The position numbers were made by a program, and so were the translations under genes. From Beroe forskalii (lineage: Eukaryota > Ctenophora > Nuda > Beroida > Beroidae), in the NCBI GenBank assembly GCA_011033025.1, contig WFMF01000294.1, positions 124,001 through 188,000 of the forward strand: a stretch of DNA of 64,000 nucleotides. The letters run 5' to 3'. Each line of letters starts with the position of its first letter. The first letter of the stretch is position 1. This document shows positions 1 through 61,799 of this stretch, piece by piece. The notes under the pieces are model-generated. The model saw only the letters and a program-made list of their open reading frames with translations, was not told the DNA's origin and made no database searches.

Positions 1-3000
1 ATCCACTCCTATCCACTCGTGGTGGATTTCTTTGTTGGGGCTGTACAGCTTGGCAGACCCGATGCAGGACCGACATCGGATGTCTGTGATCGCTATCTGG
101 AATGGAGAAGGGTGTTTTAGTCTAAATGTTGCCTCTATAATCACATTCGACGAAATAGTACCAAACGACCGGTTACCTTTTCTCAATATATCCGGTTACG
201 GTTTCGGTTCGCTAAAAACGCCGGTTAACCGGTATTTCGGTTTCGGTTCGGTTAACCGACCGATTCCACCAAACGGTTCATTGCGAAATCAAAATATTCG
301 GTTACGGTTTCGGTTTCGGTTGGCTGAAAACGCCCGGTTAACCGGTATTTCGGTTTCGGTTCGGTTAACCGGTCGTTTCCTACGAAATAGCAATGGCCTG
401 TACGGAGCCCATCAGTTTTGATTCCTTGTTCAACATGCCGTACAGCAAGGATCTACATTGAGTTCACCATGGTTATGGGATGCTGTAATATTAATTGTAT
501 TAACATACACAGTACTAAAAACAGGTGTCATATTCGCATAGGAACCAGGCATTATCCAAATTCTCTCTTTCCTTTCCTTTACTTTTCTAAGAGTTCTTGG
601 CAAGAAAGAAGCCTCTAAATATGTGAGGTACACAGCTGAATATGTAATATTTAATTCATCATGGTTGACATTATCTCGTGAGGTTGGAGGTACACTGTAC
701 ACACATGTAAACCCTGCCAAAGGCATACGCAAAACTGAATTAGTCCAAGAAATTTACCGCCTCGAGGTTGTTCTTGTACAATACTTATCAGCCGACGCGT
801 GGCACTTTAGATTCTGTTCCTACTGTTTTACGGATATCGCGTTTTGAGTTTTTGACCAAGATATTATACTATGTCACCGCCCCATTATTATCGATACAGA
901 CGAGCCGTCCGCAGTCCGTTGCGTACGTTTTCAAATAATGGAAGCAGTGAATAATTTATTCGCTCCCATGTTGATGTTTTATCATCAGCTCCGGCAGGTA
1001 AAGTAACTGTTTGAGCATTTCATTTTAGAAGTGTTCCGATAACTTTATCTTGAGCTGCAGCCCGTTTTAATTCCGAAGTTTTATGCGACGGTATCCCACC
1101 GTCTATTTTATTTCGTGCCGTATTGGACATAGTTTGGACATAATGTTATGATCGTATGACAGACATGATCGTATGATTGTGGGTGCTTGGACGAAATTGA
1201 AACTTTTTTCAAAAATTTTTAATTGTAGTTCTAATGGCGAGCAAAGTTAGGCCAAAATCAGTAATAAGATTTTTGTGGACATTTATCAAATGGCCTGGCA
1301 TTGAATGGTCGGACATACTTTGGGCGTATGCCGGACATGATTATAGTTATGAGCGCCAGGGCCCCCAGTAGCTGCGCTCATGTTGTGTTCGACCAAATAA
1401 TGTTCGACTACTACTTTTATGCTTCTAGTAGTAGCAAGCTATAGTATCTAGAACCCTCCCTTCCCTCACCTCGCCCGCTTTGCCAGCAGCACAGACCAGT
1501 CTCCCATCGTAACTCCAACTAACAGTAGTACACATCTCCGGAGTAGAGGAGGAGGAGGAGGAGTAGACCTAGGGTTATTCGTGATAATGAGTAATTGTGT
1601 GAGCAATTACTCACTCATTTTGCTTATCATAAAAGTAATAGTTGGTTAGTTTAATTACAACTCAAACTCCCAATTAAAAAAACAAGTAATTGCTAACAAT
1701 AAAAGTAATTGCTTATAATTTTCTGAGAATGATTGATTTTACGAATAACCCCTCACCTCTTTCTCTCGGAGGATGTCGTAGACCCGTACTTTGTCCTGCT
1801 CAGCAGTCACCAGCAGGTTCTCTGCCACCGGGTGGAACCGGGTCATGTGAACCTGCGGAGAGAGGGGAGTTAGGATAAGCTCATTCCCAGCCATGCTCTA
1901 AGCGTATATTAGCCAATTTTGAGGGTACTTGTAGGCGTGCAATAATAAGTAATATTGCACTCCTCACATTGGCTAATACACTAAGAGCATGGCAAATGGT
2001 CATGACGCTAATAAAATTATTGCACTCGGCTTCGCCTCGTGCAATAATTTGGTATTGTCGCACTCGGCCTGCTCCTCGTGCGACAATACAAATTATTGCA
2101 CTCGTCTTCGCCTCGTGCAATAATTTTTATTAGCGCATTCCCAGCCATGCTCTAAGCGTATATTAGCGCATTCCCAGCCATGCTCTAAGCTTATATCTTT
2201 ATATTATTGCACCTTCTCTTGGCTCAAAGTTAAATTCGATTGTAATAATTATCGAAATATTACTCCCTCATAGAACTACTGTATTTTAATCAAAAAACAC
2301 AATACAAGGTTGAAGTGATTCGATCAACTCATGTCTCTGTGTTTTTAGTTCCTCTGTGTTTTTAGTGTCTCTGTGTTTTAGTGCATAGTGGCGCAATAAC
2401 AGCAAAAAAGCATCGATTCAAATTTTATTTTATGAAGGAGCACGCGAAAACCATGGGAGTTGGCGAGCGCATATTGGTAAAGTGTGTTAATTAAGTCGGC
2501 ATTGACCAATCAGCGCACGATTTGGCCGAAGACAAGCTTTCGGGATTTCGCCTTTCGGGATCCTACGCTAATTCGCCACCAATATTAATTGCTTTCAGCT
2601 CTGATCTATCCATTAATAGCCACATGGAAACCATTGCACTCACTAAGGCACACTAAGATAATAGTTCAGATCATGTTCTGATCACGTACCAATTATTTCC
2701 TGATCACGCAAGGAGTTCTCATTTCCTATGTGTTTTAGAGACTCAAGTTTTCATTTCCCTTGTGTTTTAGAGACTAAAGTTCTCATTTCCCTTGTGTTTT
2801 ATAGACTGAAGTTCTCATTTGTGTTTTACCTGTTCGGATACGTTGAGAGTGGAGGTACAGGAGAGGGTGGAAGTGTCCCACAGCTTCACCATGCCATCCC
2901 CCGCACACGTGCACAGACAATCCCTGGGAAGAAAGCAGAGATTATTTCGGGTCTTCGAGAGCTTGGACTTTCACCCCTCCCACTGTTAGGTTCACTGTTC

Positions 3001-6000
3001 AATACTCACCATTCCTGATGCCCCCTGATGCACTACACCAGGCATTTCCGATCATTTCCAGACACGCCAGACAACACCTCAATTCCTTAGGGATCGTTCA
3101 CATATTACGTAATCAATTTTTGGGCATTTTTTACCCCCCTCCCCCCCCCCTCCGTAATCAAACGTAATCATGGCCAAACCCCCCCTCTTTTTCGGAAAAT
3201 ATTACGTAATCATGGCCCAACCCCCCCTCCTTCAGTTTTTTTGACGTCACCAAAAAACCATATTAACTGACAAAAAATTAGAACATTATCGTGTGTTTTA
3301 ATTCAATCATCAACATCATCGACTTGAAGATGACATTCAAAGCTTCATTTAGTTTTTCCTACGGAAATCTCGCCTACGACAACTCCTCTGACAATGAGAT
3401 GGACACCTCCTTTTTTTCTTCCTCCAATGCATCCTCATCTGCTCATCATCCTCCTTTACCTCCAACAGATCATCCTCCGCCTCCTCTACACCTGAGGCCC
3501 CCAGTTCCATTAAAGAGCCAGAAGTCAACGTCTTGGTCCCACCTCAACCTCCTTCAAAACCGATGGAACCAAAGTTCAGTATCCGTGTCCTGCTCATCTG
3601 CCACCAAAGCCGACGGAACCCAAGATCCAGATCAGCCCTAGCCCCTAAGTGAAAGATCAGAGTCTGGCAATTTCATAGACAACTGCAGCTTCCTACACCT
3701 TCATCAAAAAGATTGATTCCTGGATAATGGAGCTACGGATGTACGCCAAGACCTGCTCTGGCATCAACTCTAGAGCTCTAGGGAAAGAAAGGCCTCCGAA
3801 CCTCTGATCAAGCACAGAGCAGCAAACCTTATATACATAGAGGCACTGAAGTGGTTCGGAAGAGTTCAATGAATGGATTACATCCCTCCTATAAGTCCTC
3901 TACGGGCAGCACTAAATGTACTGTACATTCTGAACCATCATGTTTTAATCATAATTATGAAATTTTGACAATTTTTTCTGCAAATGGTTAATTTTTGGTA
4001 AAGAAAATTCGGGTATACTTAAAATTTTCATAAAAAATTCTTTAAATTTTCATGAAAATTCTTGAAATTTTTATGAAAATTCTTGAAATTTTCATGAAAA
4101 TTCTTGAAATTTTCATGAAAATTTGTGAAATTTTCATTAAAATCCTTGAAATTTTCATGAAAATTTAGATATTTTGATTACGTAATCATTGGCCAAACCC
4201 CCCCTCCCCCCTCGTAATCAAACGTAATCATTTGGAAACCCCCTCCCCCCCTCGGCTGATTACGTAATATGTGAACGATCCCTTACACGTACCTATTGAA
4301 AGGGCCGAACTCTAGGATTCTCACCTGTTGAAAGAGTTGAACTCCAGGCTCCTCACCTGTTGAAAGGGTTGAACCCCAGGCTCCTCACCTATTGAAAGGG
4401 TTGAACTTCTGGCTCCTCACCTATTGAAAGGGTTGAACCCCAGGCTCCTCACCCTCAACCCAGGCTCCACACCTATTGAAAGGGGTTGAGGCTCCTCACC
4501 AGGTTGAACCCAGGCCTCGCCACCTGTTGAACCTGTTGGGTTGAACCCCAGGCTCCTCACCTATTGAAAGGGTTGAGATCCAGGCCCCTCACCTGTTGAA
4601 AGGGTTGAACTCCAGGTTCCTCACCTGTTGAAAGGGTTGAACTCCAGGCTCCTCACCTGTTGAAAGGGTTGAACCCCAGGCTCCTCACCTGTTGAAAGGG
4701 TTGAACTCCAGGCCCCTCACCTGTTGAAAGGGTTGAACTCCAGGCTCCTCACCTGTTGAAAGGATTGAACTCCAGACTCCTCACCTGTTGAAAGGGTTGA
4801 TCTCTAGGCCCCTCACCTGTTGAAAGGGTTGAACTCCAGGCTCCTCACCTGTTAAAAGGGTTGAACTCCCGGCTCCTCACCTATTGAAAGGGTTGAACTC
4901 CCGGCTCCTCACCTGTTGAAAGGGTTGAACTCCAGGCTCCTCACCTGTTAAAAGGGCTCCTCACCTGTTGAAAGGGTTGAACTCCAGGCTCCTCACCTGT
5001 TGAAAGGGGTTGAACTCCAGGCTCCTCACCTGTTAAAAGGGTTGAACTCCAGGCTCCTCACCTGTTGAAAGGGTTGAACTCCAGGCTCCTCACCTGTTGA
5101 AAGGGTTGAACTCCAGGCTCCTCACCTGTTGAAAGGGTTGAACTCCAGGCTCCTCACCTGTTGAAAGGGTTGAACTCCAGGCTCCTCACCTGTTGAAAGG
5201 GTTGAACTCAGGGCTCCTCGCCTGTTGAAAGGGTTGAACTCCAGGCTCCTCACCTGTTGAAAGGGTTGAACTTCAGGCTCCTCACCTGTTGAAAGGGTTG
5301 AACTCCACGCTCCTCACCTGTTGAAAGGGTTGAACTCCAGGCTCCTCACCTGTTGAAAGGGTTGAACTCCAGGCTCCTCACCTGTTGAAAGGGTTGAACA
5401 CCAGGCTTCTCACCTGTTGAAAGGGTTGAACTCCAGGCTCCTCACCTGTTGAAAGGGTTGAACTCCAGGCTCCTCACCTGTTGAAAGGGTTGAACTCCAG
5501 GCCCCTCACCTGTTGAAAGGGTTGAACTCCAGGCTCCTCGCCTGTTGAAAGGGTTGAACTCCAGGCTCCTCACCTGTTGAAAGGGTTGAACTTCAGGCTC
5601 CTCACCTGTTGAAAGGGTTGAACTCCAGGCTCCTCACCTGTCTATTAACAGGCTCCTCGCCTGTTGAAGAGTATAACTCCAGACTCCTCATTTGTTGAAA
5701 GACTTGAACTCAAGGCTCCTCGCCTGTTGAAAGAGTTGAACTCCAGGCTCCTCACCTGTTGAAATTGTTGAACTCCAGTCTCCTCACCTGTTGAAAGGGT
5801 TGAACTCCAGGCTCCTCACCTGTTGAAAGGGTTGAACCCCAGGCTCCTCACCTGTTGAAAGAGTTGAACTCCAGGCTCCTCACCTGTTGAAATTGTTGAA
5901 CTCCAGTCTCCTCACCTGTTGAAAGGGTTGAACTCCAGGCTCCTCACCTGTTGAAAGGGTTGAACTCAAGGCTCCTCACCTGTTGAAAGGGTTGAACTCC

Positions 6001-6529
6001 AGGCTCCTCACGTATTCGTGATGTCCTCGTAGACTCCTCGGCTGCACATTTCCCAGCTCCCCTACGTCCAGTACACTCACACTAGCAGCCTCACCCGCGA
6101 AAGCAACCCTGCAGCGGGGTATTTGTGAGATAAAGTTGGGTTATTTAGGGGTATTTAGGGTTATTTAGGGTTATTCGTAAGATAGAATTACGTAGAAAAT
6201 TTATAAAATAGAGCTCATACTCTCTATTGCTGTTTGAGCAATTATACCTTCATACTAACCAAATATCTTATGAATAACAAAATGAGTGAGTGAACACAAT
6301 TACTCGCTACTAATTACTCATCATGAATCTCACCAATACCGACATAAATTTTTATTCTGCAGGGGGGGTGACCGCCCTCACCAAGGCAGAAATCGCCATA
6401 CCTGCTTTCTCCACATGCAATCGGGTCGTTCTGACACAGTTCCCCAATCCGGAACCCAAAGGCTGTGTCCTCGCGCTTTAGTTTCTTAGCGGCTGCATTC
6501 TTGTATTTGGAAGCTGTGAACCGACCCAT
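1..6529 (-). CDS. Coronin-7/POD-1-like WD-repeat protein, N-terminal part (six exons, truncated by window edge)
   Basis: Exons in transcript order: 6402-6529, 5980-6108, 2830-2923, 1757-1852, 1470-1535 and 1-96 (continuing off the window). All junction phases agree and every intron has a GT start and AG end. The ATG at 6529 gives MGRFTASKYKNAAAKK, the basic SKY/SKF-type N-terminus of coronins. Exon 2 gives RGHHEYVRSLEFNPFN, the place where coronins read V-T-D-L-x-F-S-P-F. Exon 3 has AGDGMVKLWDTST, exon 4 VHMTRFHPVAENLLVTAEQD, exon 5 TVSWSYDGRLVCAAGKAGE and exon 6 continues GEIAITDIR: successive WD-repeat blades. Family knowledge: coronins fold as a seven-blade beta-propeller and act on actin or Golgi/endosomal traffic; the long type carries two propellers. 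Whether this one does lies outside the window. Introns 1 and 4 are mostly MITE sequence, and introns 2 and 3 begin with tandem repeats derived from their own splice-donor regions. The WD/coronin call is firm; the coronin-7 subtype is inferred from the N-terminus. Confidence 0.82.
170..400. repeat. Tandem repeat rich in GGTTAACCGG and CGGTTTCGGTT
   Basis: Two diverged copies of a unit of about 118 bp lie in coronin intron 5. Each contains a GGTTAACCGG palindrome, a TTTCGGTTTCGGTTCGG tract and a second GGTTAACC. I see no coding potential. The rest of this intron (97-1469) holds nothing else I recognise. Confidence 0.7.
1572..1751. mobile_element. 180-bp MITE filling coronin intron 4
   Basis: The element starts GGGTTATTCGT and ends ACGAATAACCC, an 11-bp perfect terminal inverted repeat. 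The interior is AT-rich with repeated AGTAATTG/CAATTACT motifs. On the gene's strand the exon-4 donor GTGAG runs straight into the terminal GGGTTATTCGT. The element makes up 180 of the 221 nt of intron 4 (1536-1756). Flanks CTA and CTC could be a 3-bp target duplication with one change. A related copy sits in intron 1. Confidence 0.75.
1880..2195. repeat. Cluster of three back-to-back hairpins within an inverted repeat
   Basis: In coronin intron 3. Hairpins lie at 2014-2050 (stem AAATTATTGCAC), 2053-2088 (stem TATTGTCGCAC) and 2090-2126 (same stem as the first), with CTCG-type loops. All sit inside an outer GCTAATAAAA / TTTTATTAGC pair. The block is edged by direct copies of a motif starting ATTCCCAGCCATGCTCTAAG at about 1885, 2137 and 2168, and an inverted copy near 1975-1990. 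It looks like a composite fold-back MITE. Confidence 0.7.
2710..2829. repeat. 31-bp tandem repeat starting at the exon-3 splice donor
   Basis: Three full units and a partial one share TTTCCCTTGTGTTTTAGAGAC-type sequence (shown here on the plus strand with one break in identity between units). The innermost partial copy is the beginning of coronin intron 3 itself: the donor is GTAAAACACAAATGAG, and the outer copies read TATAAAACACAAGG or TCTAAAACACAAGG, so their GT has been lost. Another simple repeat of TCTCTGTGTTTTTAG lies at 2330-2385. Confidence 0.7.
3330..3641 (+). other. Ser/Pro-rich open frame inside the Harbinger-like element
   Basis: From an ATG at about 3330 a frame stays open to 3641. 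It starts MTFKASFSFSYGNLAYDNSS, followed by a Ser/Ala tract, a His/Pro-rich stretch and a Ser-rich tail. I recognise no domain. It may be a captured host fragment or chance; the element is otherwise non-coding. No transcription evidence is visible. Confidence 0.25.
3990..4170. repeat. AT-rich tandem repeat of AAATTTTCATGAAAATTCTTG type
   Basis: About seven imperfect units of some 21 bp, each containing the palindrome-like ATTTTCATGAAAAT, lie inside the Harbinger-like element near its right end. Non-coding. Confidence 0.75.
4286..6011. repeat. 32-bp minisatellite, about 53 units, copied from the end of coronin exon 2
   Basis: The plus-strand unit reads GTTGAAAGGGTTGAACTCCA then GGCTCCTCACCT. 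On the gene's strand each unit is the end of exon 2 (coding VRSLEFNPFN) followed by its splice donor, CAACAG then GTGAGGAG. The exon-proximal unit (5980-6011) is real coding sequence, continuous with HHEY upstream, and its AG phase joins exactly to exon 3. Units nearest 4286-4560 are most degraded; the middle is nearly homogeneous, which implies ongoing expansion or homogenisation. The unit length is not a multiple of three and reading through a donor meets TGA at once. Confidence 0.92.
6109..6401. mobile_element. MITE-rich coronin intron 1 (element about 6168-6334)
   Basis: GGGTTATTCGT at 6168-6178 matches the inverted repeat of the intron-4 element. The interior motifs CACTCACTCATTTTG, GAGTAATTGTG and TTTGGTTAG match it too, in the opposite orientation relative to the gene. 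The 3' splice region is built of repeated TAAATAACCC/TAAATACCCC units leading into GCTGCAG. The far end is worn (GAGATTCATGATGAG), so the exact boundary is uncertain. Confidence 0.6.
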
Positions 6530-15234: not shown

Positions 15235-16338
15235 TTACTTGCGGAGGTACTCCTCTATAATCTTCTCCACCGCTCCCCCAAACACCTCTCCCGTCCTGAA
15301 GTCCGGGAACAGCATGGTCTCATGTCTTGCCCCCGGGAACACCACGAACTCCAGCAGTCGTCCTGCCTCCCGCAGCCTCCCCGCCATCCTGGCGTTCTCC
15401 GTCAGGAACATGTCGAACTCTCCTTCCAGCATCACAGTGGGCGGGAAGTGAGCGAGGATCTCGTCGCTGCACTTCCCCGGGAAGAGCATGGGGTCGTGGC
15501 GCTGCTTTGCCAGATCCGCCGCTACCTGGCGCCAAGTCGCCCGGATAATGGTGGCGGAGTTGCGCTCCTGCGCCGTCATGGCGAGGGGGTCGGAGAAGCT
15601 GTAGTCGGAGACCATGGCGATGCTGGTGAGCAAGAGCTTGACTCTGTGCGCCTGCTCGCAGTGCGCCATCATGGCGGCCGCCCCCAGCGCCACATATCCA
15701 CCCCCACTCTCCCCAAACACACAGATCCGGTCCTTGTCCACGCCCAGCTCTGCAGCATGCTCAGAGACGAACATGATGGCTTCGTAGAGGTCCATCACGT
15801 TGTTAGGGCACTGTGTCTCCGGAGCTATCCGGTAGTCGACATTAAACACCACCACGTTACAGGACACAGCCAGGTGGTCCAGGAAGGGCTTACTGTCCGC
15901 AGCAGACCCTGAGATGCAGCCCCCTCCGTGCGCGTAGACCACCACAGGATTCCCCTTCTTCCCCACCAGAGGTAGAGGGGTGTACACTTCCACCAAGACA
16001 TCATGCAGCCCTGCGTGCGTGGTAGGTACCCGGAACTCCGTCCTCTCGATCTGTTCTGCAGCAGCACTCAGCACAGGATGGTGCTTGATCATGGCAGACA
16101 TGCCGGCGTTGTTTGCCCGGGTTATCTCCACAAACTGGCGCCCGGAGGCCTCATCCTCCTGGACAGAGAGTTCCAGAAGCTTCTTCCAGATCTCAAGAGG
16201 AGGGCCGTTCTGTTGGATCTGATCCAGCATCGCGTTGATCCCTGCCACTTGGCCCTCTGCCAAGCCTTTGAGGGGGAAGTTGAAGAGGTTCTTAGAATCT
16301 ACTCGAGTCATGATGTAGTCCTGAGAGGGGAGGGTCAT
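15235..16338 (-). CDS. Alpha/beta hydrolase of the HSL / arylacetamide-deacetylase type
   Basis: An intronless 367-residue protein that should hydrolyse carboxylic or acyl esters. All catalytic landmarks of the hormone-sensitive-lipase branch are present: HGGG oxyanion loop at 137-140 (VVVYAHGGGCISGS), nucleophile Ser211 in GESGG (209-213), Asp309 in LEGEFDMF and His339 in GARHET, in the expected order and spacing. DYRIAPE (168-174) is another family motif. No signal peptide or anchor is evident, so it is probably cytosolic, unlike vertebrate AADAC, which has an N-terminal membrane anchor. The start is the first ATG of the frame; Met10 is an alternative. It is divergently oriented to the sulfotransferase gene with 1.39 kb between the two start codons. 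The substrate is unknown. Confidence 0.9.
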   Translation of the reverse strand: MTLPSQDYIMTRVDSKNLFNFPLKGLAEGQVAGINAMLDQIQQNGPPLEIWKKLLELSVQEDEASGRQFVEITRANNAGMSAMIKHHPVLSAAAEQIERTEFRVPTTHAGLHDVLVEVYTPLPLVGKKGNPVVVYAHGGGCISGSAADSKPFLDHLAVSCNVVVFNVDYRIAPETQCPNNVMDLYEAIMFVSEHAAELGVDKDRICVFGESGGGYVALGAAAMMAHCEQAHRVKLLLTSIAMVSDYSFSDPLAMTAQERNSATIIRATWRQVAADLAKQRHDPMLFPGKCSDEILAHFPPTVMLEGEFDMFLTENARMAGRLREAGRLLEFVVFPGARHETMLFPDFRTGEVFGGAVEKIIEEYLRK

Positions 16339-17725: not shown

Positions 17726-19977
17726 ATGATTCCAATAAAACCCAAACAATTGAAGTATTTTGGGGTGACTGCGCTGTCTCTCACTCTGATATTCGTACTT
17801 CACTACATCACCCAGACACCTGTCTCATCAGAAACATCCTTTGTCTCCTCACATGGGTCTCCAGAAGACTTTCAAGCAACTTCAGAGGACCTTGCCTCTA
17901 CTCCTGAAGACATTGTCTCTACTCCTGAAGACAGTGACACCCCATCTTCACATGAGGACAACCATGAATCATCAGAGGGTGAGGTAGAAGCATCTAAGGA
18001 AGCATCAGATAGTAAAGAGGAGATAGAGGCATCTCAGGAAACATCAGATAGTAAACAGGTAGCGGCATCTCAGGATAGCGGTGCAGAGGAAGGTTCTTTC
18101 CAGACTAAACAGAACCTGATGTTCGTGAAGACACACAAGTGTGGCACCTCCACTCTGGTTAACGTGTTCTACCTGTTAGGTGTCAGGAGGAGACTTAACT
18201 TCGTCATCAACCCTTACACTCACAAAGTCAACGTTAATGGGTAATTAGGGTTGAGATTCAAACCTTTTATTGGTATTTCGAAGCATTTAAACCTTTTATC
18301 CGTAAAACATTTTAGTCCTGAACTCAGAATTTAGGAACTAAACTCACTGACGAATCCCTCAATTCAGTTTACATAATTGTGTAAACTGAAATCGATGAGA
18401 ACGTCAGAGGGTTCTACTTCTATTTCTAATTTACTCTCCAACTGTTACAATCCCCCTGTTAAACACTTCCCCCTCAGAAGACTGCTCCCACCGCGGCCAG
18501 GGGGTCAGTACAACATCCAGTGTCAGCACGGAACCTTCCGTCCGGGCAAAGAGCATGAGATCCTCCCCAAGGAAACGTCCCTTTACGTCACCATCCTGCG
18601 CTCACCCGTCAGCCACTTCACCTCGGCTTTCAACTTCTTCGGGGCGGCCAATATGATGAAGAAGGTGGTGCATATTGTGACGAAAAAATTCCTCCGAGAT
18701 TGCAATTTTAATGTAATCCATATTCCATGGACAGAGGGGGGTGGGGGTACGACATTCATCTCGCGAATTTCATCTCAGGTTACTTCATCTCCGGCTCCCT
18801 GTCCTGACCCTAACTTTAACCCTAACCCACCATTGGCACACTGACCAGTATGTCAGTATATTAGTCAGTAAACCTCCCCACTTCATTTCAGAAATACGGA
18901 GAGCAGGAGCTTGATGTTCTGGTGGGGAAGTACCTCTCCGAAAGAGAAGAACCCGACAAACCGCCCGTCATAAACATGGAAGTGAACTCTGCTGCAAGGG
19001 ATCTGGGGTACAAAACCTTTGCCCAAGCGCTGCCATCGTAAGTAGTCTGCCAATAAATCTTACAATATAAGCAATTTTCAAATTAAGTCACTCGGCTGCC
19101 GATCAACATGAAATCGATTTTTCGGCACTTTCTCCGCGTAGTATACAGTTCTGGAAATTTCTGAAAATTGCAAGATCGATTTTTCGTGTCAAAAATTATC
19201 GAAAATAGCCAAAGTGTGCTGATTCACAGCACATCAGCACATGATATTTATATAATCCGGAATTTAACCTATTGTTTGAAAGTTTGAATGAAACTTTTAT
19301 TTTGAAAATGAAATCAATTTATCCGTTTTTTAACTTCCTGGAGAACGTATAGTATCCTCGCGTTCAATGTGACATTTCACTATTTCAGGGACATGAGTCT
19401 TGAGGATAAGATAAGCTCCTTCGTCTCTCACATCGACAAGGAGCTAGACTACGTCATGATCACCGAACGCATGGACGAGTCTCTGGTTATTCTAAAGGAG
19501 TACTTGGGCTGGGAGCTCTCAGACCTGTTCTACCTCAACAGAATGGTGAGCAGCAAGCCTAAAGCGGTGCTGTCAGAGCAAACACAGCACCGGGTGTTGG
19601 AGATAGACGCCATTGATAGGCAGTTGTACGAGCACTTTAACCGGACTTTTGAGCAGCATATCGAGAGGGTTGGGAGGGAAAAGGTGCAGATTCTGGTGGA
19701 GGAGTTCAGGAGAATGAGGAATGAATTCGAGGACAAATGCTTTGATAAGACAAGAGAAGTACAACGTGGGCCGTATGGGTCCGCATCGTGGGCATTGAGT
19801 GACTACGGGGAAAATAAAAACCAGGCATGTTCATTCCTTCAAGAGGGAGATGTGCTTCTTACCACTGCCATAACGGACCTTCAGATATCATACGATTATA
19901 AGAACATAAACGCGTGTAAAAGTGCGGGTAATTGCATCATGCAAGCCACGATAAGACAAAATTCAGCAGGATTATGA
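17726..19977 (+). CDS. Galactose 3-O-sulfotransferase-like Golgi enzyme (Gal3ST family)
   Basis: Four exons: 17726-18240, 18478-18664, 18892-19037 and 19389-19977. They join in phase to 478 residues plus stop. The protein is a type II membrane protein: cytosolic MIPIKPKQLK, a hydrophobic anchor at about 12-28, then a Ser/Glu/Asp-rich stem (about 40-127). The PAPS 5'-phosphosulfate loop is FVKTHKCGTST (134-143); a KTHK-start loop is typical of Gal3ST and heparan 2-O sulfotransferases. The 3'-phosphate loop is TILRSPVSHFTSAF (210-223). Family role: transfer of sulfate from PAPS to galactose residues of glycolipids or glycans in the Golgi lumen. QYNIQCQH before the second loop supports Gal3ST. 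The intron-2 donor (GTGGTG) is weak. A polyadenylation signal lies 264 nt past the stop. Confidence 0.9.
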
Positions 19978-30300: not shown

Positions 30301-33300
30301 TTTTTTGAGTTGAAAAAATTATCATAAATTTATAATACCCATTGTCTTTAGTGATGGGGAGAGTTAGACGTGACTGACTATAGTCATACGTGTGCCTTTG
30401 ACAGGTATTGACTATTATGTTAGTAAATCGCTGTCATGAAGTTTTATAGTGAAGTATTGATACTTTGATATATCCTTTCAGTGACAATAGTATTGTATGA
30501 GATGAATGTTTTTTACTCTTTACCAGGGAATAGAGTTGGAATTGTTATCATAGCAAAGCAAAAGTTTTGCAATTATACTTGCGGCATTTGAATGTTTGCA
30601 TTTGCCCAGTAGAGCAGTAGAGGATAACTCATTGTCTATATTTGAACGGTTATTGTTCGCTTCAAACTGGGGCACTCTGCCGTCAATACATCTCAGGAGC
30701 TCAGGCAGGTACTATAAAAGAAGCTGCATCTTGGTGTCTCAGTTAGTTCTCATTACAGTTTAACAGTGCTGTTATTACCGAACACGATGCTGAGATCAGC
30801 GTTACTGATTGTTGCTTTCATTAGCATCGTTGCCTCTAAAGCAACCATCGATGACAAGACAAAAATGTTCCACAACACCATAGCGAAGTATGGGGTGGAA
30901 GTCAGAGACAAGAGAGACTACCACGAGAGATTCCGGAGGCTGGCACAATTCAAGGACATGGTCGATAGGACGGTGAGTGGTCTCCCGCGGCCGCTGGAAG
31001 CTCTCAACAGATTTGCTGTGAACAACGACGAGGAACACGAAACGTTGGTGAAGTTGACACGACGGAATTCCAATGAGACCCTCACTGGAATGCTGGAAAT
31101 GGAGGAAGAAATCAACAAGAGATGGCTACCCAGTGGTTCCCGCTCTGCCTACGGAGATGCACCCGATCCAGAGGAGGAGCCTGAGTTTGACTACTGGGAG
31201 AACAAGGTGGGTCTGTCCAAGGTCCAAAATCAGGGAAGTTGTGGGGCCTGCTGGTCATTCCCTAACACAGTGGCTATCGAGGCCGTCTACAAAGCCACCA
31301 CGGGGGAAGACGTGGACTTTTCTGAGCAGTACTTCGTGGACTGCAGCTACCCTTACTCTGGATGTGCCGGGGGCACAGTGAACGGTGGATTTAAAATAAC
31401 AAAGGATCGGAACTACATGATGACTGAAGAAGACTGGCCATTTACAGCTGATTACCAAGCGTGCCCCTTTACGAAGGACATCGAGGAAGGCCGAAATAAT
31501 GCAATGGCAAAAATGTGGTTAACAGAATGGTTTCCAATAAGAAACGATGAGAAAGGATTCATGGTGTCCCTCCAGTATTCTCCAGTAGCTCTCAGTTGTT
31601 TCATTAGTGAGAATTATTTTGCATATTCTAGCGGTCTATATGATGATGACTTGTGCATCACCGAGCCGAAGTCGCACGCCCAGCTCCTGGTTGGCTACAC
31701 TCCAACCTACTTGAGAGTGAGGGGGAGCTACGGAGAAGCTTGGGGGGACTGGGGCTATATCAACTACAAGAGGGGTTCCATCAATCTGCTTAACTGCAAA
31801 TTCTTTGATAATGGTTACGGCATCAACATGGATTGGGCCCAGGATATCGAATACCAGTTCTGCAACAAAGCGAAGCTCTCGACTAGGAAGGAATGCAAGG
31901 CATCCTGCGACAGTCTGAACGTGAATGGGGAGACTGGGTGGTATCTGGCGACCGTTCCAACGGTCAAACACAACACCCAGATAGTTAACATGGTAAATGC
32001 CCGATTTCCGGGAGTTAAAGCGGATGACAAGTTCAATCTGGTGTGGATCGGGCTCTCGGACATGACCCGTTCCAGGGTCTACACCTGGGACGACCCTGCG
32101 TTTCAGGTAAACTACTTCAACCACAGCAGCAGATACACCGGAACTAACAAGTTGGGACTTATCAACAAGAACGCCGGGTTTTGGGTGACGAAGAACAGCT
32201 TTACTTTCAAAGCCCGGGGACTGTGCAGCCGTGCGGTGACGTGTCCGGACATTAGCACGTTCTATCTGGGCGGGACGGTGCACTTCGACCAGGAGCGGCT
32301 GGTGGAGGGGACTGTGGGGGAGTTGGAGTGTGGAGAGGGGTGTGTTAACTCGCACCCAACTAGCCGGGTAATCTGTAGGAGTGGCGTGTGGGTGCCGGAG
32401 GAGGGGGGAGATTACCTGGCCTGCAGCTGTCCAGAGGACTAGTGACGTAGTGGATAGGAAAACACAAGGCATGGGTGTCTTGACCTTTTGTGGCCTCAAA
32501 ACTTCAAAATGTAGAGACGCTTGGGCCAAAGAATTAAGAGAGTTCCGGACTCGTGATGTAGTGGAAACATATCGTGGCATGGGACGGAAAGCCGAGAGAA
32601 GATGATTAGAATTTGTAATTATTAGTACTGAACAGAATTTGCTGTGATAATCACCAATTATTTTGATCGTGGAAACGGTTTTTCGTTTTGATGAAGGGTT
32701 TCAAATTGGGCATATTGGTTTATTTTCAGAAAATGGGGAGGGTATAAGGATAAGCATAATTTTACTTATAAAAATGAAAATTGAAAAGGAAAAATATGTT
32801 ATTAACATTTGGTTTGAGGATGAAGAGGGGCAGGAATACGGGAATTGAAATTAAAATTGAAAGAGTAAAAGGCGGACTTGACCACTATGCGCAGGCGCCT
32901 TTCATGAAGAAACGCCTCCATGCAGCCGTTCCACGAATCTATGAAAACCTTGGATGGGATGTGTGGTGAGATGAGTGGGTGAGATAAGTTGGTGAGATTA
33001 GTGGGTGAGATGTGTGGGTGAGATAAGTGGGTGAGATAAGTGGGTGAAATGAGTGGTTGAGACGATTGGGTGATATGAGTGGTTGAGATGAATGGGTGAG
33101 ATGAGTGAGTTAGATAAGTGGATAAGATGTGTGGGTGAGATAAGTGGGTGAGATAAGTGGGTGAGATTAGTGGGTGAGATAAGTGGGTGAGACGAGTGGG
33201 TGAGATAAGTGGGAGAGATAAGTGGGAGAGATTAGTGGGTGAGACGAGTGGGTGAGACGAGTGGGTGAGATGAGTGGGTGAGGTGAGTGGGTGAGATAAG

Positions 33301-35761
33301 TGGGTGAGGTTAGTGGGTGAGATAAGTGGGTGAGATGAGTGGGTGAGATGAGTGGGTGAGATAAGTGGGTGAGATTAGTGGGTGAGATGAGTGGGTGACA
33401 TGAATGGGTGAGATGAGTGGATTAAATGAATGGGTGAGATGAGTGGGTGCGATGAGTGGGTGCGATGAGTGAGTGAAATGAGTGGGTGAGATGAGTGACT
33501 GCGACTGTCAACTTACTTGAGGATGCTCCACGTTACGGGGAATTTCTCCGACAGGGTCGCCGCGTTAGCGGAGTTGATGACATCCAGGTTGGTCCCTGAC
33601 TTCTTGACAGCAGCCTGGTATCCTGCCTGGTTCTCCGGAGACTGGTGGTCCTGCTCGGGGGAGAGACCAGGCAGATCCACGGAGTTTACCACCTGGTTGG
33701 TACATTGCGCGCACTTCACACCTCGCTCACTATTATAAGAGGGCGGCGGCGGACACCGGGGCCTCCCCTGCGAAGAGACACCAGTTTACCATATATGGAT
33801 ATTTACCATGAATGGAGATTTACCATGTATGGTTATTTACCATATTTGGAAATTTATATATGGAAATTTATCATATTATATGGAAGTTTTTCGTTTAAGT
33901 TGCACATTAAGTTGTGCTATAATGTACGGAGTTTTGAATGCACATGGTAAGGAGTTTTTTCAGTGGAAACATTGGCATCACAGCACGGGGGGCCAGGGTC
34001 CGCCAGGAAATGGTGAGCGAGGTGTTTGTTAGTTATTTCATTCTAGTCAGATTCACTAAAAGTGATGGATCTGGAATTGTTCATCCACTTATGACAAAAT
34101 TACAGAAGTTGTTTGTCTAGTTTTTTTGGACAAAATCGTAGTTCTTCATACCGCTACTTTAGAAGCTGCTACGGATTGCGAGTGTGATGCTTTGCTCGGT
34201 GGATAGGATTTCTTGGTGTACAAACACTGTCCTGGTTTCTTGTCTGCCCACCTCCTAATACGTTCCTGAATATATCATGACAATAATATTAGAGGATCAT
34301 AACAAAAAACTGCTGCAGGGTATACCATAGCAACGAAAAAGTTTTTACACATTTCCATGTGAGATTTCCACACTTTTATATCATACTTGTTGGATAAACA
34401 TATAACACGTTTGCATGAGCAATAACATTAACATATTCCTATGTCCACACGTGCGCATCGTGCTGCATTGAAACATAATTTAACAGCAGTGGTTGCATAT
34501 TCAAATTCATCAAGATATGAATTTAAAGTGACGTCATCAAAATGATTAATATACCCTCATGAACCGAATAAGTATAATCGTGGGTGTCCTATTTTTATTT
34601 AACAAGCAACTATATTAGCAGTTTGTAAAGACACAGGTAAGCTTTTATTACTTTATTAGCTGGACCATAGTTTTCAATCTGCCATACATGAAATACAAAA
34701 CATAAAATCAGAACATTACGCATCGGTTTTATTTTGTGTTTAAATCTTCACAAGTCCAAAAAAGGCAAAATTCGAGAAAAAATTTGCGTATCACATGCAA
34801 CTTGAACTATCAATGGATCAATGAAATTATAATCTTTCATGATTTTTTGTTGCTTCAAATTACGACAATATATTTAGTTTAGCAAATAATTTTTCCAACA
34901 CAAGAAATTTAACCTGAAGGTGTCTTACAATCGTGGAGTTATCTACAGGGTTTGTGTATCTTCGTTTGGTGGGTCCTTTCTCCACCTGAGGGGAGAGACC
35001 GGGCTTAAATCTGAACATCTGAGGTATAAAATAAAATTTGAGAAAAGTCTGAGGTGATGGGATGAGGAGCTAATTGAGTGAGAGATGGGCAATTGAAAGG
35101 TTTGCAATCAAAAATAAATTGCAATTATCACAAAACTGAGTTGCACGATTCATACCAATTTATAAAATGTAAACCATTCATAGTTGAAACGCAAGGAAAT
35201 AACTTTTGCCTGCTTACAATTCGTTTCTCTGCGTATTTGGCGTAAGGTACGATGTTCTCCCAGCCCACAGCACTCTGCTCCATCTCCCTGCAGTACACCA
35301 AGCTGCTCCACTCTGAAGGATCGTCCTTTTCTGACAGATCTGCGGAATAATAGGTGTAAGAAAGGTGACATTTGAAGAGATGAAATTTGAGAAATGGGGC
35401 CAATTTCTGACGGAGTTTGAGTGAGACTGAGAGGTGTGAAATTGAAAGGGGTGGGGGGGGGGTGAAAAGGCGTGGGAAAATAACTATAAGTTGGGAGGGG
35501 GGGGGTAAAAAAGTCGCATACTCGTTAGAGCTCAAATACAGGCCTCACGTTCCCGCAAACATTTGGACCGGATTGAGAGTCAGACTTAGAGAGTCAGAGA
35601 AAGAAAATTATACAGAACCCACCCACAAGTCTTTCCTGAAGCCTCTTATCATGTCTCCGGGTGGTAAAGGTACAATTGGGATTCTTCTGGGGGGCCAGAG
35701 TATCCCTGATGTCATCCAAGATAAGGTCTACTTCCTGTTCATGGGCATTCTTCTTCTTCAT
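21315..35761 (-). CDS. Unrecognised 607-residue protein, nine exons
   Basis: Exons in transcript order: 35623-35761, 35218-35339, 34929-34985, 34173-34265, 33517-33767, 29228-29332, 26467-26573, 26065-26205 and 21315-22123. All introns read GT..AG and every phase agrees; the total is 1824 nt, exactly 608 codons. The first exon starts MKKKNAHEQEVDLILDD, with an A at -3; an upstream exon is possible because the frame is open before this ATG. The N-terminal two-thirds is charged, with WENIVPYAKYAEKR, a CPPPPSYNSERGVKCAQC segment, ARMPSYRNYRKQ and YRDKFKCSICIEGLQ. The Cys pairs (CAQC, CSIC) could bind zinc but no finger is formed. The last exon is disordered: Ala/Pro-rich, then Gln/Arg/Asn/Gly-rich RGGNKGGRNRNNNK, then GLSICDVYESKQSSEDVF. 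No signal peptide. I do not recognise the family. A cysteine-protease gene lies in the fifth intron on the other strand. Confidence 0.7.
22910..23117 (-). other. Possible extra exon of the 21-36 kb gene
   Basis: Minus-strand sequence here stays open and ends in a plausible donor (CGGACAG then GTGAAA). One frame (ending WFSGYACRT) would join the last exon in phase, but the neighbouring exon at 26065-26205 already joins the last exon in phase without it. A GC-rich perfect hairpin (TGATGCGCCGC stem) sits at about 23,006-23,032. It may be an alternative exon or noise. Confidence 0.2.
23160..24300. repeat. GC-rich tandem array, seven units of about 160 bp
   Basis: The landmark AACGCCACCCCTTTCTGAGG occurs near 23213, 23372, 23510, 23675, 23831, 24085 and 24250 (spacing 138-165 bp; the 254-bp gap contains a 74-bp insertion). 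On the minus strand each unit has a pyrimidine tract, CTCCTCAG and then GGGGTGGCGTTCTGCGG, an acceptor-like start. Long minus-strand frames repeating GVAFCGAPRRGAARP are a product of the repeat. It lies in the last intron of the 21-36 kb gene. Confidence 0.85.
23921..23994. mobile_element. 74-bp hAT-like micro-MITE with 8-bp target duplication
   Basis: Starts TTGTCAGACGTTGTCTGA and ends TCAGACAACGTCTGACAA, an 18-bp perfect inverted repeat around a GC-rich loop. GTGAAGAG flanks it on both sides (23913-23920 and 23995-24002). The neighbouring units of the host array lack it, showing the empty site. An 8-bp duplication is the mark of hAT transposition. A second copy lies at 41854-41916. Confidence 0.85.
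24300..24620. repeat. Purine-rich GAGTGGGAGTGGGGG simple repeat
   Basis: Almost pure G/A on the plus strand with many GGG and GGGG runs; it continues the spacer of the 160-bp array. Could form G-quadruplex or triplex DNA. Long frames on either strand are compositional. Confidence 0.75.
24620..25840. other. Intronic AT-rich sequence, no exon seen
   Basis: Lies within the last intron of the 21-36 kb gene. No splice-bounded frame or motif was recognised. Confidence 0.4.
25849..26001. repeat. 18-bp tandem repeat (TACAGCATACAGACAGAC), about 8.5 units
   Basis: Nearly perfect units. The 18-bp period leaves an open minus-strand frame repeating VVCLYA, which is an artefact. It starts about 60 bp inside the intron from the donor at 26064. 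Confidence 0.92.
26574..29175. repeat. Mosaic array: GGGTTGCTATGGGGATAAGAG units and five copies of a downstream exon start
   Basis: Two components alternate. One is a ~21-bp unit (GGGTTGCTATGGGGACAGGAG and variants) at 26,580-26,760, 28,255-28,435, 28,515-28,660, 28,735-28,810, 28,890-28,950 and 29,040-29,170. The other, at about 26,776-26,830, 28,452-28,513, 28,675-28,733, 28,830-28,885 and 28,960-29,025, copies the acceptor and first part of the exon at 26467-26573 (CTTCAG then TAAGCAGCACGAGCAG). The array fills the intron upstream of that exon and is interrupted by the element at 26862-28254. Confidence 0.8.
26862..28254. mobile_element. Terminal-inverted-repeat element carrying a ~41-bp minisatellite
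   Basis: Begins GGGGGGGGCAACCTCG and ends CGAGGTTGCCCCCCCC. GGGTTTA flanks both ends (26855-26861 and 28255-28261). Just inside each end is CCCATAAACCCCGAAAAATT-like sequence. The centre (about 26,950-28,110) holds about 27 units of ATGGTACCATTTCAGAAAAG, each followed by GGTCGAAAATCCTCAACAAAA. Each unit carries the palindrome GGTACC. A second copy lies at 40415-41141. No transposase, so non-autonomous; the superfamily is unclear. Confidence 0.78.
29180..30700. other. Intronic and upstream region of the protease gene
   Basis: Apart from the exon at 29228-29332 of the minus-strand gene I see only a short GGTGGATTGTTGTGA repeat (about 29,480-29,540) and AT-rich sequence. Regulatory DNA for the nested protease gene probably lies at the right end. 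Confidence 0.4.
30713..30720 (+). promoter_or_regulatory. TATA box of the cysteine protease gene
   Basis: TATAAAAG, 74 nt before the ATG. An initiator-like CTCAGTT with its A at 30741 lies 28 nt downstream of the first T, the standard TATA-to-start spacing, predicting a 46-nt 5' leader. Confidence 0.65.
30787..32442 (+). CDS. Secreted papain-like (C1) cysteine protease with C-type-lectin-like and sushi-like domains
   Basis: Intronless, 551 residues. Signal peptide at 1-18 (MLRSALLIVAFISIVASK). A charged propeptide of about 20-130 has a KMFHN...ERFRRLAQF pattern as in I29 inhibitor domains. The peptidase spans about 135-345: Gln149 and Cys155 in NQGSCGACWSF and His297 in SHAQLLVGY. The third catalytic position, Asn in the usual K-N-S-W-G, reads RGSYG, with Gly313 and Tyr315 replacing Asn and Trp. 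Residues 360-481 look like a C-type lectin-like domain (LATVPTVKHN, LVWIGLSD, FWVTKN, final C480). Residues 486-551 look like a sushi module (Cys 486, 515, 519, 530, 546, 548). Likely secreted, glycan-binding, digestive or immune; activity may be reduced. The ATG at 30787 is preceded by no other ATG in frame. It lies inside an intron of a minus-strand gene. Confidence 0.88.
   Translation: MLRSALLIVAFISIVASKATIDDKTKMFHNTIAKYGVEVRDKRDYHERFRRLAQFKDMVDRTVSGLPRPLEALNRFAVNNDEEHETLVKLTRRNSNETLTGMLEMEEEINKRWLPSGSRSAYGDAPDPEEEPEFDYWENKVGLSKVQNQGSCGACWSFPNTVAIEAVYKATTGEDVDFSEQYFVDCSYPYSGCAGGTVNGGFKITKDRNYMMTEEDWPFTADYQACPFTKDIEEGRNNAMAKMWLTEWFPIRNDEKGFMVSLQYSPVALSCFISENYFAYSSGLYDDDLCITEPKSHAQLLVGYTPTYLRVRGSYGEAWGDWGYINYKRGSINLLNCKFFDNGYGINMDWAQDIEYQFCNKAKLSTRKECKASCDSLNVNGETGWYLATVPTVKHNTQIVNMVNARFPGVKADDKFNLVWIGLSDMTRSRVYTWDDPAFQVNYFNHSSRYTGTNKLGLINKNAGFWVTKNSFTFKARGLCSRAVTCPDISTFYLGGTVHFDQERLVEGTVGELECGEGCVNSHPTSRVICRSGVWVPEEGGDYLACSCPED
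32610..33000. other. 3' flank of the protease gene
   Basis: A/G-rich non-coding sequence; an ATTAAA lies near 32,851 on the plus strand and could serve in polyadenylation. No exon seen. Confidence 0.35.
32965..33495. repeat. 13-bp minisatellite (GAGATAAGTGGGT), about 40 units
   Basis: Units differ mainly at GATAAG/GATGAG/GACGAG/GATTAG. The array starts about 20 bp inside the intron from the donor at 33516, on the exon side of the large intron that holds the protease gene. Confidence 0.92.
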
Positions 35762-37308: not shown

Positions 37309-40059
37309 CTGCAAAAAAATTCATAACAAAGGTTTTAGTGGTTCAATCGACTCCAATAGGTGCCTAGAGCCACCAAAAAAATTGATTCAAATTTTCGACT
37401 TCCGGAAACCTCAGGGTGGCCACGCCCTTTTTTGACCGTGGGAACTTTTATGAAAAATTGCTAATCATTGATTCAAAAGCAACTAGAGCATGATTATACT
37501 CTAACCCCATGTTTTTTGGCACGAGAAATCGTTTAGAACCAATATCTATGTCCTAAGACCAATATTTTGGCCATTATGGGCCACGCCCACTTTTTGTCAT
37601 CAAAATTATGGCCGAAAATTTGAAGTTTTCCTATGGTTCCAACTAGAGTATGATTATACTCGAATCCTAGGTATTTTGGCACGAGAAATCGTTTAGAACC
37701 AATATCTGAGTCCTAAAACCAATATTTTGGCCATTACGGGCCACGCCTACTTTTTGGCATATGAATTATGGTTGAAAATCTGAAGTTTTCATATGGTTTC
37801 AAATAGGGCATGATTATACTCGAATCATAGGTATTTTGGCACGAAAAATCGATTAAAGCAACTTTCAAAACGCTAAAACCAATATTTTGGACATTTTGGA
37901 CCACGCCCACCATTTGTCATTAAAATTATGGCCGAAAATCTAAAGTTTTAATATGGTTCTAACAAGGGCATGATTTTACTCTAACCCGATGTTATTTGGC
38001 ACGATAAATCGTATAGAACCAATGTCTTAGTTCTAAAACCAATAACCTGGCCATTTTGGGCCACGCCCACTTTTTGCCATCACAATAATGGCCGAAAATC
38101 TGAAGTTATATTAGGATTATATAGCTAAATTTTTCTGTAGGTTTCTATTTATTAAGTCCTAGATGTAGCCATTTAGTGCGTTAGCTGAAAAGTCCGAACT
38201 GCGGACAATATAGCTAAATCTGACCTTACTGTTCCTCAGTATAGGTAATGCGTTCCTCGGTATGGTAATGTGCTACGCTTTGCCATAGTGGATAAAACCG
38301 TGTGTTCCATCTATAATCAGAGCACATGATCGCGTGTTGGTGTAGCCAATCGCAAGTTAACAAGATGACCACTGTGTTGTCGTGATACGCTTTATCACCT
38401 GATCAGAGTTCATCACTGTAATGTTGCGATACCATGTTTCACTGGTAACTGTATTGTAGCAACACGATTTTACACCCTATCAGAGTCATCAATGCCATCA
38501 TGACGATACGATGCTACACCTATCGGTTATCAGAGTACTTCACCGATTTGGTGTTACATCTCGTCCCATTCAGAGTGCATCATGCCATCATGTAAATAAG
38601 TAACAAAATGATATCTGCACTGTGACATATCAAACTAGAAACCATATACTGAACAGTATGCAGTGTCGTCTTCCTCTTAGCTACGCCCCCATGGCTTCAA
38701 AATATACACGAAGAACGGTTACCGCAACAACAACACCTACTACAGAAGGAACAGAAGACATGCGAGGCTAGGATCACCTTCATAGACGGAGCCCTCACCA
38801 GTCCCCTTTTTAAGAAAAAGGCTTCCTCCACGGACCTCACCACCAAGTGCATCATTACTGACACTGTTGGTTCCTTCAAGATTTCGAAGCTGGTGCCAAA
38901 CTGAACTGCCACATCTTTTTCCCTCTACGGGCTGGGCAGACGAGCGAGACAAGTCCAGCACTGCCCCACACCATCAAGCTCCTTGGAGACCAATGAATTG
39001 AATTGGGATGGAGGGACAGCTATGATACAGATTCAGCTAAATAGTCGGAATCGAGGACTTTACTGGAAGGGGAGGAGGGACAGCTGGGAAAATTTAACTA
39101 AATAGTCCAAACTACGAACGATCATAAAGTCACATAATATAGTTAAGATTTTTATTTTAGAGTGAAGATAATAGATTAAATCGATTTTTATTTTTAATGT
39201 CAAAAACACAGGTTTAGAGTATAATGATCCTCTTTTTAACCCTTTTTTGGTAATTTTGGATATAAATTTTCTGCCAAACTCCAGGACAAAATTGATAATA
39301 ATCCAAAATGCTAAAAATACCAATAATAATGCTTTTAGTTTACAAAATTGCTTTTATCGACTTCTTAGTCAAAAACTAAAATTCTAGTATAATCATGCCC
39401 TAGTTGAAACCATATATGAAAACTTTAGATTTTCGGCCATAATTTTAATGACAAATGGTGGGCGTGGTCCAAAATGTCCAAAATATTGGTTTTAGCGTTT
39501 TGAAAGTTGCTTTAATCGATTTTTCGTGCCAAATTACCTATGATTCGAGTATAATCATGCCCTATTTGAAACCATATGAAAACTTCAGATTTTCAACCAT
39601 AATTCATATGCCAAAAAGTAGGCGTGGCCCGTAGTGGCCAAAATATTGGTTTAAGGACTCAGATATTGGTTCTAAACGATTTCTCGTGCCAAAATACCTA
39701 GGATTCGAGTATAATCATGCTCTAGTTGGAACCATAGGAAAACTTCAAATTTTCGGCCATAATTTTGATGACAAAAAGTGGGCGTGGCCCATAATGGCCA
39801 AAATATTGGTCTTAGGACATGGATATTGGTTCTAAACGATTTCTCGTGCCAAAAAACATGGGGTTAGAGTATAATCATGCCCTAGTTGCTTTTGAATCAA
39901 TGTTTAGCAATTTTTCATAAAAGTTCCCACGGTCAAAAAAGGGCGTGGCCACCCTGAGGTTTCCGGAAGTCGAAAATTTGAATCAATTTTTTTGGTGGCT
40001 CTAGGCACCTATTGGAGTCGATTGAACCACTAAAACCTTTGTTATGAATTTTTTTGCAG
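37309..40059. mobile_element. Fold-back element 1, long arms of 160-bp tandem units
   Basis: Begins CTGCAAAAAAATTCATAACA and ends with its inverse. Arms run about 37,309-38,110 and 39,360-40,059. The left arm is a strict tandem array: CCACGCCC/CCACGCCT recurs at 37,420, 37,581, 37,741, 37,901 and 38,061, a 160-bp period. Units carry TTTTGGCACGAGAAATCG. An inverted 13-mer TAGTAAGGGAATC lies just outside both ends (37,275 and 40,071), so the true element may be slightly larger. No transposase is seen in the 1.25-kb centre. Confidence 0.85.
38699..38904 (+). other. Protein-like open frame in the centre of fold-back element 1
   Basis: A plus-strand frame without its own ATG reads ...KTCEARITFIDGALTSPL, continuing through a Lys/Ser/Thr-rich stretch and DTVGSFKISKLVPN to a stop at 38,902. 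The residue mix looks like real protein, but I recognise no family. It may be a captured exon or transposon remnant. Confidence 0.3.
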
Positions 40060-56230: not shown

Positions 56231-57228
56231 CGATCTGTGCAAAAATTATTTACAAAGGTTTTATTGTTGGAATGTGTTCTAATAGGTCCCATGAAGGTCT
56301 CCAAAGAGTGTTAAGGTGCTACCTTGAAGGGAAAAAGTCAGGAGGCCACGCCCTTTTTTCGACCGTGGGAAATTTTGAGGGAAAATGAAAATTCAGTTTT
56401 AATATGATATATGACATGTGGGTACCCTAAACCTATGTTTTTTGGGACGGGGAATCGATTCCAAACACTTTCAAAGTCGTATCTACCTTCATTGACCCAA
56501 ACCGGCCACGCCCATTTTTGCGCAAGGCATTTTTTGAGGTCTAAAAGCTATTTTTCAGATTAATGCGATATATGGCATGTAGGTACTCTAAACCCATGTT
56601 TTTTGGGACGAGAAATCGATTCCGCACATTATCAAAGTCGTATCTACCTTCTTTGCCCCAAAACCGGCCACGCCCACTTTTTGTGTATGGGATTTTTTGA
56701 CCGCCACAAAGGTATTTTTCAGTGAAGTGCGATGTACGGCATGTAGGTACTCTAAACCTATGTTTTTTGGGACGAGAAATCGATTCCACGCATTATAAGA
56801 GTCGTATCTACCTTCCTTGACTCAAAATTGGCCACGCCCAATTTTGCGCAAGACATTTTGAGGTAGAAAAGCTATTTTTCAGATTAATGCGATGTATGGC
56901 ATGTAGGTACTCTAAACCCATGTTTTTTGGGACGAGAAATCGATTCCACACATTATAAAAGTCGTCTCGACCTTCCTTGAACCAATATCAGCCAAGCCCA
57001 CTTTTTGCGTATGGGATTTTTGCCCACCGGCACCATAAAGTTATTTTTCAGTTATCTATATTAATAATTTCAGAGTGTTCGTGCATCTGTCTGTCTGTCT
57101 GTGTAAAATGACTATTTAAGAAGTGCATTTGATATTTTTGATCGTTTTTTTCGGGAAAATCTGGTATGTGTCCCATATAACCCCGGCTGAGTGACGTCAC
57201 AGACCTAAAGGTCAATTTTTCTGTATCC

Positions 57229-61439: not shown

Positions 61440-61660
61440 ACGATGCCGTGATACGTTGCCATGACAACGTGTCTTAATTACCTGGGGATGGTGCCAGGTA
61501 TACGTAATAATACATTGCCATGACAACATGTCTTATTTTCTTACCTGTGATAGGTTCACATAATGACACGTTGCCATGACAGCATGTCTTATTTTCTTAC
61601 CTGTGGATGGTAGACGTTGCCATGACAATATGTCTTATTTTCTTACCTGTGGATGGTTCA
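61440..61660. repeat. Tandem repeat of about 55 bp carrying X-box-like sites
   Basis: GTTGCCATGACAAC at 61455, ATTGCCATGACAAC at 61514, GTTGCCATGACAGC at 61570 and GTTGCCATGACAAT at 61616, each followed by a TGTCTTATTTTCTTACCTGT-like spacer. The first is a full RFX-type X-box. No gene start is visible nearby. Confidence 0.8.
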
Positions 61661-61799
61661 CATAGTAATACACTGGGAAACCGTTCATTATAAACTCAAA
61701 CACAAGGAAATACTTTTTATCTATAATCCACCCAATTTTTGCAAAAATTCCAGCTTACCTGGAAATTTTTTATAACAATTCATTTACTATTTCAGGGGC

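Follow-up and report, generated by a model that had tools for sequence, protein, structure and literature searches.

Tandem copies of an exon tail place an array of donor-like splice sites at the start of intron 2 in a coronin-like gene of the ctenophore Beroe forskalii

In a 64,000-nt stretch of the Beroe forskalii genome (NCBI GenBank assembly GCA_011033025.1, contig WFMF01000294.1, positions 124,001 to 188,000 of the forward strand; the whole stretch is called the window below), intron 2 of a coronin-like gene opens with 53 tandem copies of the terminal 32 nt of exon 2, most of them carrying a donor-like site at the copy junction. Taking all parts together, we consider it likely that this exon tail was duplicated, that a new splice donor thereby replaced an older one, that a minisatellite grew from the duplication, and that the first donor of the array is the one used. 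All coordinates are positions in the window, and in splice-site motifs a slash marks the border between exon and intron.

Results

The coronin-like gene and its intronic array

The gene model on the minus strand joins five exons, with GT and AG at the intron borders, into a single open frame of 182 codons. Its parts, together with those of the array, are the following:

6402 to 6529, minus strand: coding part of exon 1, starting with MGRFTASKYKN (gene model)
5980 to 6108, minus strand: exon 2, 129 nt, coding for VRSLEFNPFN-R at its end and joined in frame to exon 3 (gene model)
5980 to 6011, minus strand: copy 0 of the array unit, the final 32 nt of exon 2 (0 edits versus the array consensus)
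5974 to 5979, minus strand: first donor, GTGAGG after ACAG, keeping the frame (gene model; U1 duplex -12.1 kcal/mol)
4293 to 5979, minus strand: array in intron 2, made up of 53 units of about 32 nt, with AG/GTRAG in 45 of them (Tandem Repeats Finder, segmentation, donor count)
2830 to 2923, minus strand: exon 3, beginning with RDCLCTCAGDGMVKLWD (gene model)
1757 to 1852, minus strand: exon 4 (gene model)
1470 to 1568, minus strand: exon 5, the last one recognised (gene model)

Intron 2 is 3056 nt long; the remaining introns of the model measure 188, 293 and 977 nt. Coronins are defined by a DUF1899 domain at the N-terminus followed by WD40 repeats, and the predicted protein has this order. 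DUF1899, which we take to be the N-terminal domain of coronins, was matched in Pfam at amino acids 3-57 (exons 1 and 2; 22.1 bits versus a cut-off of 20.7), followed by a nearly complete WD40 repeat at amino acids 67-102 (40.2 bits versus a cut-off of 27; profile positions 5-39 of 39), which crosses the join of exons 2 and 3. Three of the 23 Pfam families listed reached their cut-off, the third being ANAPC4_WD40 (23.0 versus 22.9). A search of NCBIfam with the gene-model protein gave no match.

Tandem Repeats Finder (TRF) reported an array of period 32 at 4291-6016 with 54.2 copies. The counts used here come from a minimum-edit segmentation (a fuzzy search for the unit returned 52 matches), which divides 6011-4293 into 54 segments, of which the one at 6011-5980 is exonic and the other 53 (5979-4293) are intronic. 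Exactly 32 nt long are 47 of the 54 segments, and 19 are exact copies of the consensus GTGAGGAGCCTGGAGTTCAACCCTTTCAACAG, namely 18 of the 53 intronic units and the exonic one; the segment 4490-4453 was parsed poorly (24 edits). A 24-mer core of the unit was counted 23 times in the window: the exon end accounts for one of these and the array for the other 22, whereas 100 shuffles contained none. An exact 24-mer of the unit had no match in viral or prokaryote contig collections, as expected for an animal gene.

The whole 32-nt unit, from GTGAGGAG to AACAG, is the tail of exon 2, where it codes for V-R-S-L-E-F-N-P-F-N-R. Its beginning, codons V-R-S, is exon coding sequence located exactly 32 nt before the exon end and within the sequence for the WD40 domain. 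The repeat is thus derived from a coding exon, copy 0 being exon 2 coding sequence inside a WD40 repeat. An earlier sequence-only reading of this DNA had recognised a minisatellite of about 53 copies of 32 bp at the end of exon 2, and had taken the exon as the source and not the product of the array; both points stand, the second one in view of the WD40 repeat that spans the exon 2/exon 3 join. The span it gave, 4286-6108, has to be corrected to 4293-5979, as 5980-6108 is exon 2. Its description of the unit as 20 nt of exon plus CAG plus a donor was wrong: all 32 nt are exonic in copy 0, and the parts listed total 31 nt.

A coding function of the repeat could be rejected, since a TGA lies within the unit and its length of 32 nt is not divisible by three. 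The longest stop-free minus-strand stretch listed in the array covers 63 amino acids, or about six units, and none of the 22 open reading frames of at least 120 amino acids, on both strands, overlaps the array.

Donor sites and reading frame

The motif AG/GTRAG occurs 45 times in intron 2, always inside the array and with the first donor included, which corresponds to 45 of the 53 units. The site is identical, CAG/GTGAGG, in 39 array donors, and four further units have AG/GCGAG. As in arrays of the F7 type (see Discussion), the array sets in right at the exon border, with donors in its units (45/53). The earlier reading had spoken of about 53 tandem, nearly identical donors, of which the near-identity and the tandem arrangement were confirmed, while the number fell to 45 by the AG/GTRAG test.

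As a measure of donor strength we used the energy of the duplex with the 5' end of U1, using a sequence from which that of this species may deviate. GTGAGG reaches -12.1 kcal/mol behind CAG (39 sites) versus -5.2 behind TAC in the exon (6011). The donor hexamer is, in other words, exon coding sequence that becomes a strong donor only once it stands behind the terminal CAG of the exon. With -12.1 kcal/mol, the first donor is stronger than the remaining four in the model, which range from -7.9 to -10.2, and than a distal site described below (-8.5). Among the 7239 GT sites on both strands of the window, 42 reach -12 kcal/mol or better, and 39 of these lie inside the array. Masking of the donors by RNA structure was considered and found to be unsupported: exon 2 plus about four units folds worse than 200 of 200 shuffles (z +2.7).

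With the first donor, the frame stays open across all five exons. Seven other donors, out of the 52 later units, were tested, and all seven led to a stop at codon 87, in agreement with the earlier claim that only the first donor keeps the frame. The same stop should result from every later donor, because the TGA sits at the junction between the exon and the first unit.

Origin and growth of the array

Two further features were identified at the distal array end and past it:

4287 to 4292, minus strand: probable ancestral donor AG/GTACGT, in the context CAATAG/GTACGTG at the distal array end (U1 duplex -8.5 kcal/mol)
3087 to 4285, no strand assigned: insert resembling a miniature inverted-repeat transposable element (MITE; element at about 3090-4282); its terminal inverted repeats are perfect over 26 bp, and TTA direct repeats lie on either side

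The MITE-like insert of about 1.2 kb lies in intron 2, a few bases past the distal array end. Subtraction of the array (1687 nt) and of the insert (1196 nt, counting one TTA) from intron 2 leaves 173 nt, which start with GTACGTG, end with CTTCCCAG and are close in size to two of the three other introns (188 and 293 nt). Since a plausible intron is obtained without array and insert, the AG/GTACGTG at the array boundary is probably the ancestral donor. The reconstruction further suggests that the intron existed before the duplication and that only its donor was replaced.

According to our proposal, a minisatellite would have been seeded in coding sequence when the tail of exon 2, starting with GTGAGGAG and ending with CAG, was tandemly duplicated just upstream of the old donor AG/GTACGTG. 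This event would have brought GTGAGG directly behind CAG and thus have created a new and stronger donor, CAG/GTGAGG, at the exact old exon end, with the protein unchanged provided that the first donor is used. Slippage or unequal exchange may then have expanded the array to 53 units, by which the old donor would have been displaced 1.7 kb downstream. The first, exon-adjacent donor would most likely be the one spliced, as reported for intron 7 of F7. Splicing from a later donor would lead to the early stop and probably to mRNA decay.

In the segmentation, units 3/7 and 4/8 have variants in common, and variant sharing peaks at lag 4 (mean Jaccard index 0.195 from 11 pairs; all other lags from 1 to 12 at most 0.133). 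Both observations suggest that the array grew by duplication of several units at a time. The lag analysis comprised 53 of the 54 segments; unit 4592-4561 was omitted, and beyond unit 44 the numbering is therefore off by one. Substitutions at the nine donor positions (11/414) and at the 23 other positions (44/1058) did not differ significantly (p 0.22 by Fisher test and 0.21 by column permutation) among the 46 of 53 intronic units that are exactly 32 nt long with at most six edits, a set from which seven units of other lengths, including the most damaged ones, were excluded. This result fits the view that the array is a neutral passenger, with no significant sign of donors having been kept or purged. 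What would allow such a neutral minisatellite to be tolerated is splicing at the first donor.

Other repeats and genes in the window

Donor arrays of this type are no general feature of the window: only four of its 75 TRF entries have at least three GT sites at a U1 duplex energy of -10 kcal/mol or better on one strand. Three of these entries belong to the donor array (45 sites), and the fourth is a repeat at 61507-61664 (three sites). The latter, on the minus strand, is a 46-bp tandem repeat of about three copies, each with CAG/GTAAGA (U1 duplex -11.5 kcal/mol); inspection by eye recognised no exon adjoining it.

A second array with a 32-bp period (2714-2820, minus strand; 3.3 copies by TRF) was found in intron 3 of the coronin-like gene. 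It starts about 9 nt into the intron, which begins at 2829, and its copies show no repeated GT donor by eye. That intron 2 and intron 3 harbour arrays of the same period may be a coincidence. The third array near a donor in the window is a 13-bp minisatellite with 41 copies (32965-33497, TRF), which begins about 19 nt past what looks like a donor on the minus strand, CTCAA/GTAAGT at 33516 (by eye). Arrays with units of 160-172 bp were reported by TRF at 37480-38107, 39381-39888, 56399-57021, 60160-60761, 61914-62620 and 63560-64000; some members of this set have a motif similar to GGGCGTGGCC.

Genes recognised elsewhere in the window are:

15235 to 16338, minus strand: Abhydrolase_3 gene (Pfam)
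17726 to 18244 and 19369 to 19977, plus strand: galactose-3-O-sulfotransferase-like pieces (Pfam; the first one below the cut-off)
30766 to 32442, plus strand: papain-family cysteine protease (Pfam)

Discussion

Which donor is used

Most donor sites of the array are identical, and therefore strength cannot decide between them. The reading frame favours the first donor, and by analogy with F7 intron 7 its use is the likely mode here. Papers are cited in the following by their PMC numbers. In the passages of PMC2423196 considered, scanning is no more than cited as one of several models.

A different mode of splicing, compatible with our interpretation, appears possible to us though rather doubtful. 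The array could be dual-specific and recursive, with each CCCTTTCAACAG/GTGAGG junction acting as acceptor and as donor. Splicing from the first donor to a later unit would recreate the same donor, and the n units that remain after use of a late donor would together have the form GT...AG and be removable in a second round, so that the array would correct itself. Between 5948 and 4291 there are 48 YAG/GT sites, including the distal TAG/GTACGT, and 37 of the 48 have 10 pyrimidines at -20 to -5, within the span of 8 to 14 found for the four acceptors of the gene model itself. This measure does not discriminate, however, as 27.7% of 1619 background minus-strand YAG sites reach at least 10. In most animals, introns of a single 32-nt unit would be too short, which counts against the idea as well, and its end product would be a normal mRNA, rendering the process invisible to short reads of mature mRNA. 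Support comes from the human UBC gene, which is reported to be spliced via a tandem dual-specific array, and from the reported 8.4-fold enrichment of such introns in tandem repeats (PMC10809524).

Recursive splicing might go further and be a routine step of maturation, which we regard as a little less probable still. As 45 of the 53 units have the AG/GTRAG junction, an internal splice would leave a shorter copy of the same array; being nearly closed under splicing in this way, the array could grow out of frame without limit and yet be tolerated. The authors of PMC10809524 suggest that repeats with dual-specific sites may expand at little harm, since they can be removed by splicing, and by analogy the same logic would hold for the out-of-frame repeat described here.

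It is improbable, in our judgement, that the array has a tuning function of the kind raised in the sequence-only reading, its length setting the share of stop-containing transcripts from late donors and hence the dosage of the coronin-like protein via nonsense-mediated mRNA decay. The stop at codon 87 with all seven late donors tested and the variable repeat number in F7 (PMC6627357) would be in line with such a role, but the donor positions lack a significant excess of conservation. We give slightly less credit to a duplicated segment that straddled the exon/intron border, made up of 24 nt of exon and 8 nt of an intron beginning with GTGAGGAG, which the sequence-only reading implies. Every internal junction indeed resembles an exon end plus donor, but this scenario would predict neither the exonic GTGAGGAG 32 nt before the exon end nor the distal GTACGTG. 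It is very improbable that the array owes its size to misassembly or that the gene is a pseudogene, given that 35 of the 53 intronic units deviate from the consensus, with groups of units sharing variants, and that the five exons form one open frame with regular intron borders.

Several points nevertheless weigh against the proposed duplication, donor replacement and first-donor use. Arrays of this length are difficult for short reads, and the copy number could have been misjudged. Choice of the most upstream site cannot be the whole rule, because exon 2 contains a strong donor-like site, CGG/GTGAGG at 6094 (minus strand; U1 duplex -11.1 kcal/mol), only 14 nt past its acceptor; this site must be ignored by the spliceosome and strains a strict most-upstream rule. 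The reliance of all duplex energies on a U1 sequence that may not be that of this species belongs here too, as does the lower variability of the donor positions (2.7% versus 4.2%), albeit not significant. The coronin-like gene appears, judged by its incomplete WD40 propeller, to continue past the window start, with its 3' part outside the window. Coronin is absent among the best 60 of 495 PDB matches (phmmer), where generic WD40 proteins rank on top, and also among the three PDB matches of the N-terminal 89 amino acids. "Coronin-like" is therefore the safe name, based as it is on a marginal DUF1899 match and generic WD40 matches.

Comparison with known systems

The arrangement resembles that of intron 7 in the human F7 gene, which has about 5 to 8 repeat copies. 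There, as in the array described here, homologous repeats open the intron and the downstream copies represent potential donors. The 37-bp repeats of the F7 intron vary in number, the first of them contains the authentic 5' splice site, and only the most upstream donor was reported to be used (PMC6627357, citing Borensztajn 2006). The accessible part of PMC3778950 makes no mention of the F7 repeats. The present case differs in having 53 units, in an unrelated gene and in a single sequence, with a 32-nt unit whose copy 0 is exonic throughout. For F7, use of the upstream site alone is a reported result, whereas we infer it here.

In fission yeasts, tandem 24-nt repeats were described at gained introns, although the authors call the intron of the first gene unsettled in vivo (PMC3629103). 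These introns span four and two copies (PMC4974935), and the proto splice site is given as AGGC in PMC3629103 versus AGGT in PMC4974935. Splice sites come from tandem copies of an exonic segment in both cases, but introns were gained in the yeasts, whereas in Beroe the intron seems to have pre-existed and its donor alone to have been replaced. The same distinction applies to the Rogers model as described in PMC4974935, in which duplication within an exon creates splice signals: the signals likewise stem from exon duplication with the protein unchanged, but here a donor would have been gained at a probably existing intron, and AGGT is found only at the copy junction. Human paralogues were moreover reported to have internal tandem repeats at exon-intron borders (PMC2812944).

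The dual-specific arrays of human UBC and VCX3A share the AG/GT at unit borders with the array in Beroe, and UBC, with homologues said to reach 46 units, is of comparable scale (PMC10809524). In UBC the units are coding and a multiple of three, in contrast to the stop-containing, intronic units of 32 nt found here. The remark of the sequence-only reading that it knew of no described case this large was thus wrong in kind, as F7 intron 7, the fission yeast repeats and the UBC arrays precede it. Repeat number alone has parallels in the UBC homologues. What seems to be new is the combination of an out-of-frame, all-exonic unit, 45 donors at the start of one intron and a probably replaced donor; neither this combination nor a donor array of this size at an exon end was found in the literature, with most subscription journals outside the search.

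Implications

The array extends the F7-type arrangement to a larger number of repeats in an unrelated gene. It seems to record the replacement of a working splice donor via a tandem duplication of coding sequence, with the protein left unchanged. As a natural experiment, it also bears on the choice between donors: an identical 9-nt site is shared by 39 of them in a largely repeated context, so that they differ mainly in position, and effects of position can be separated from those of strength.

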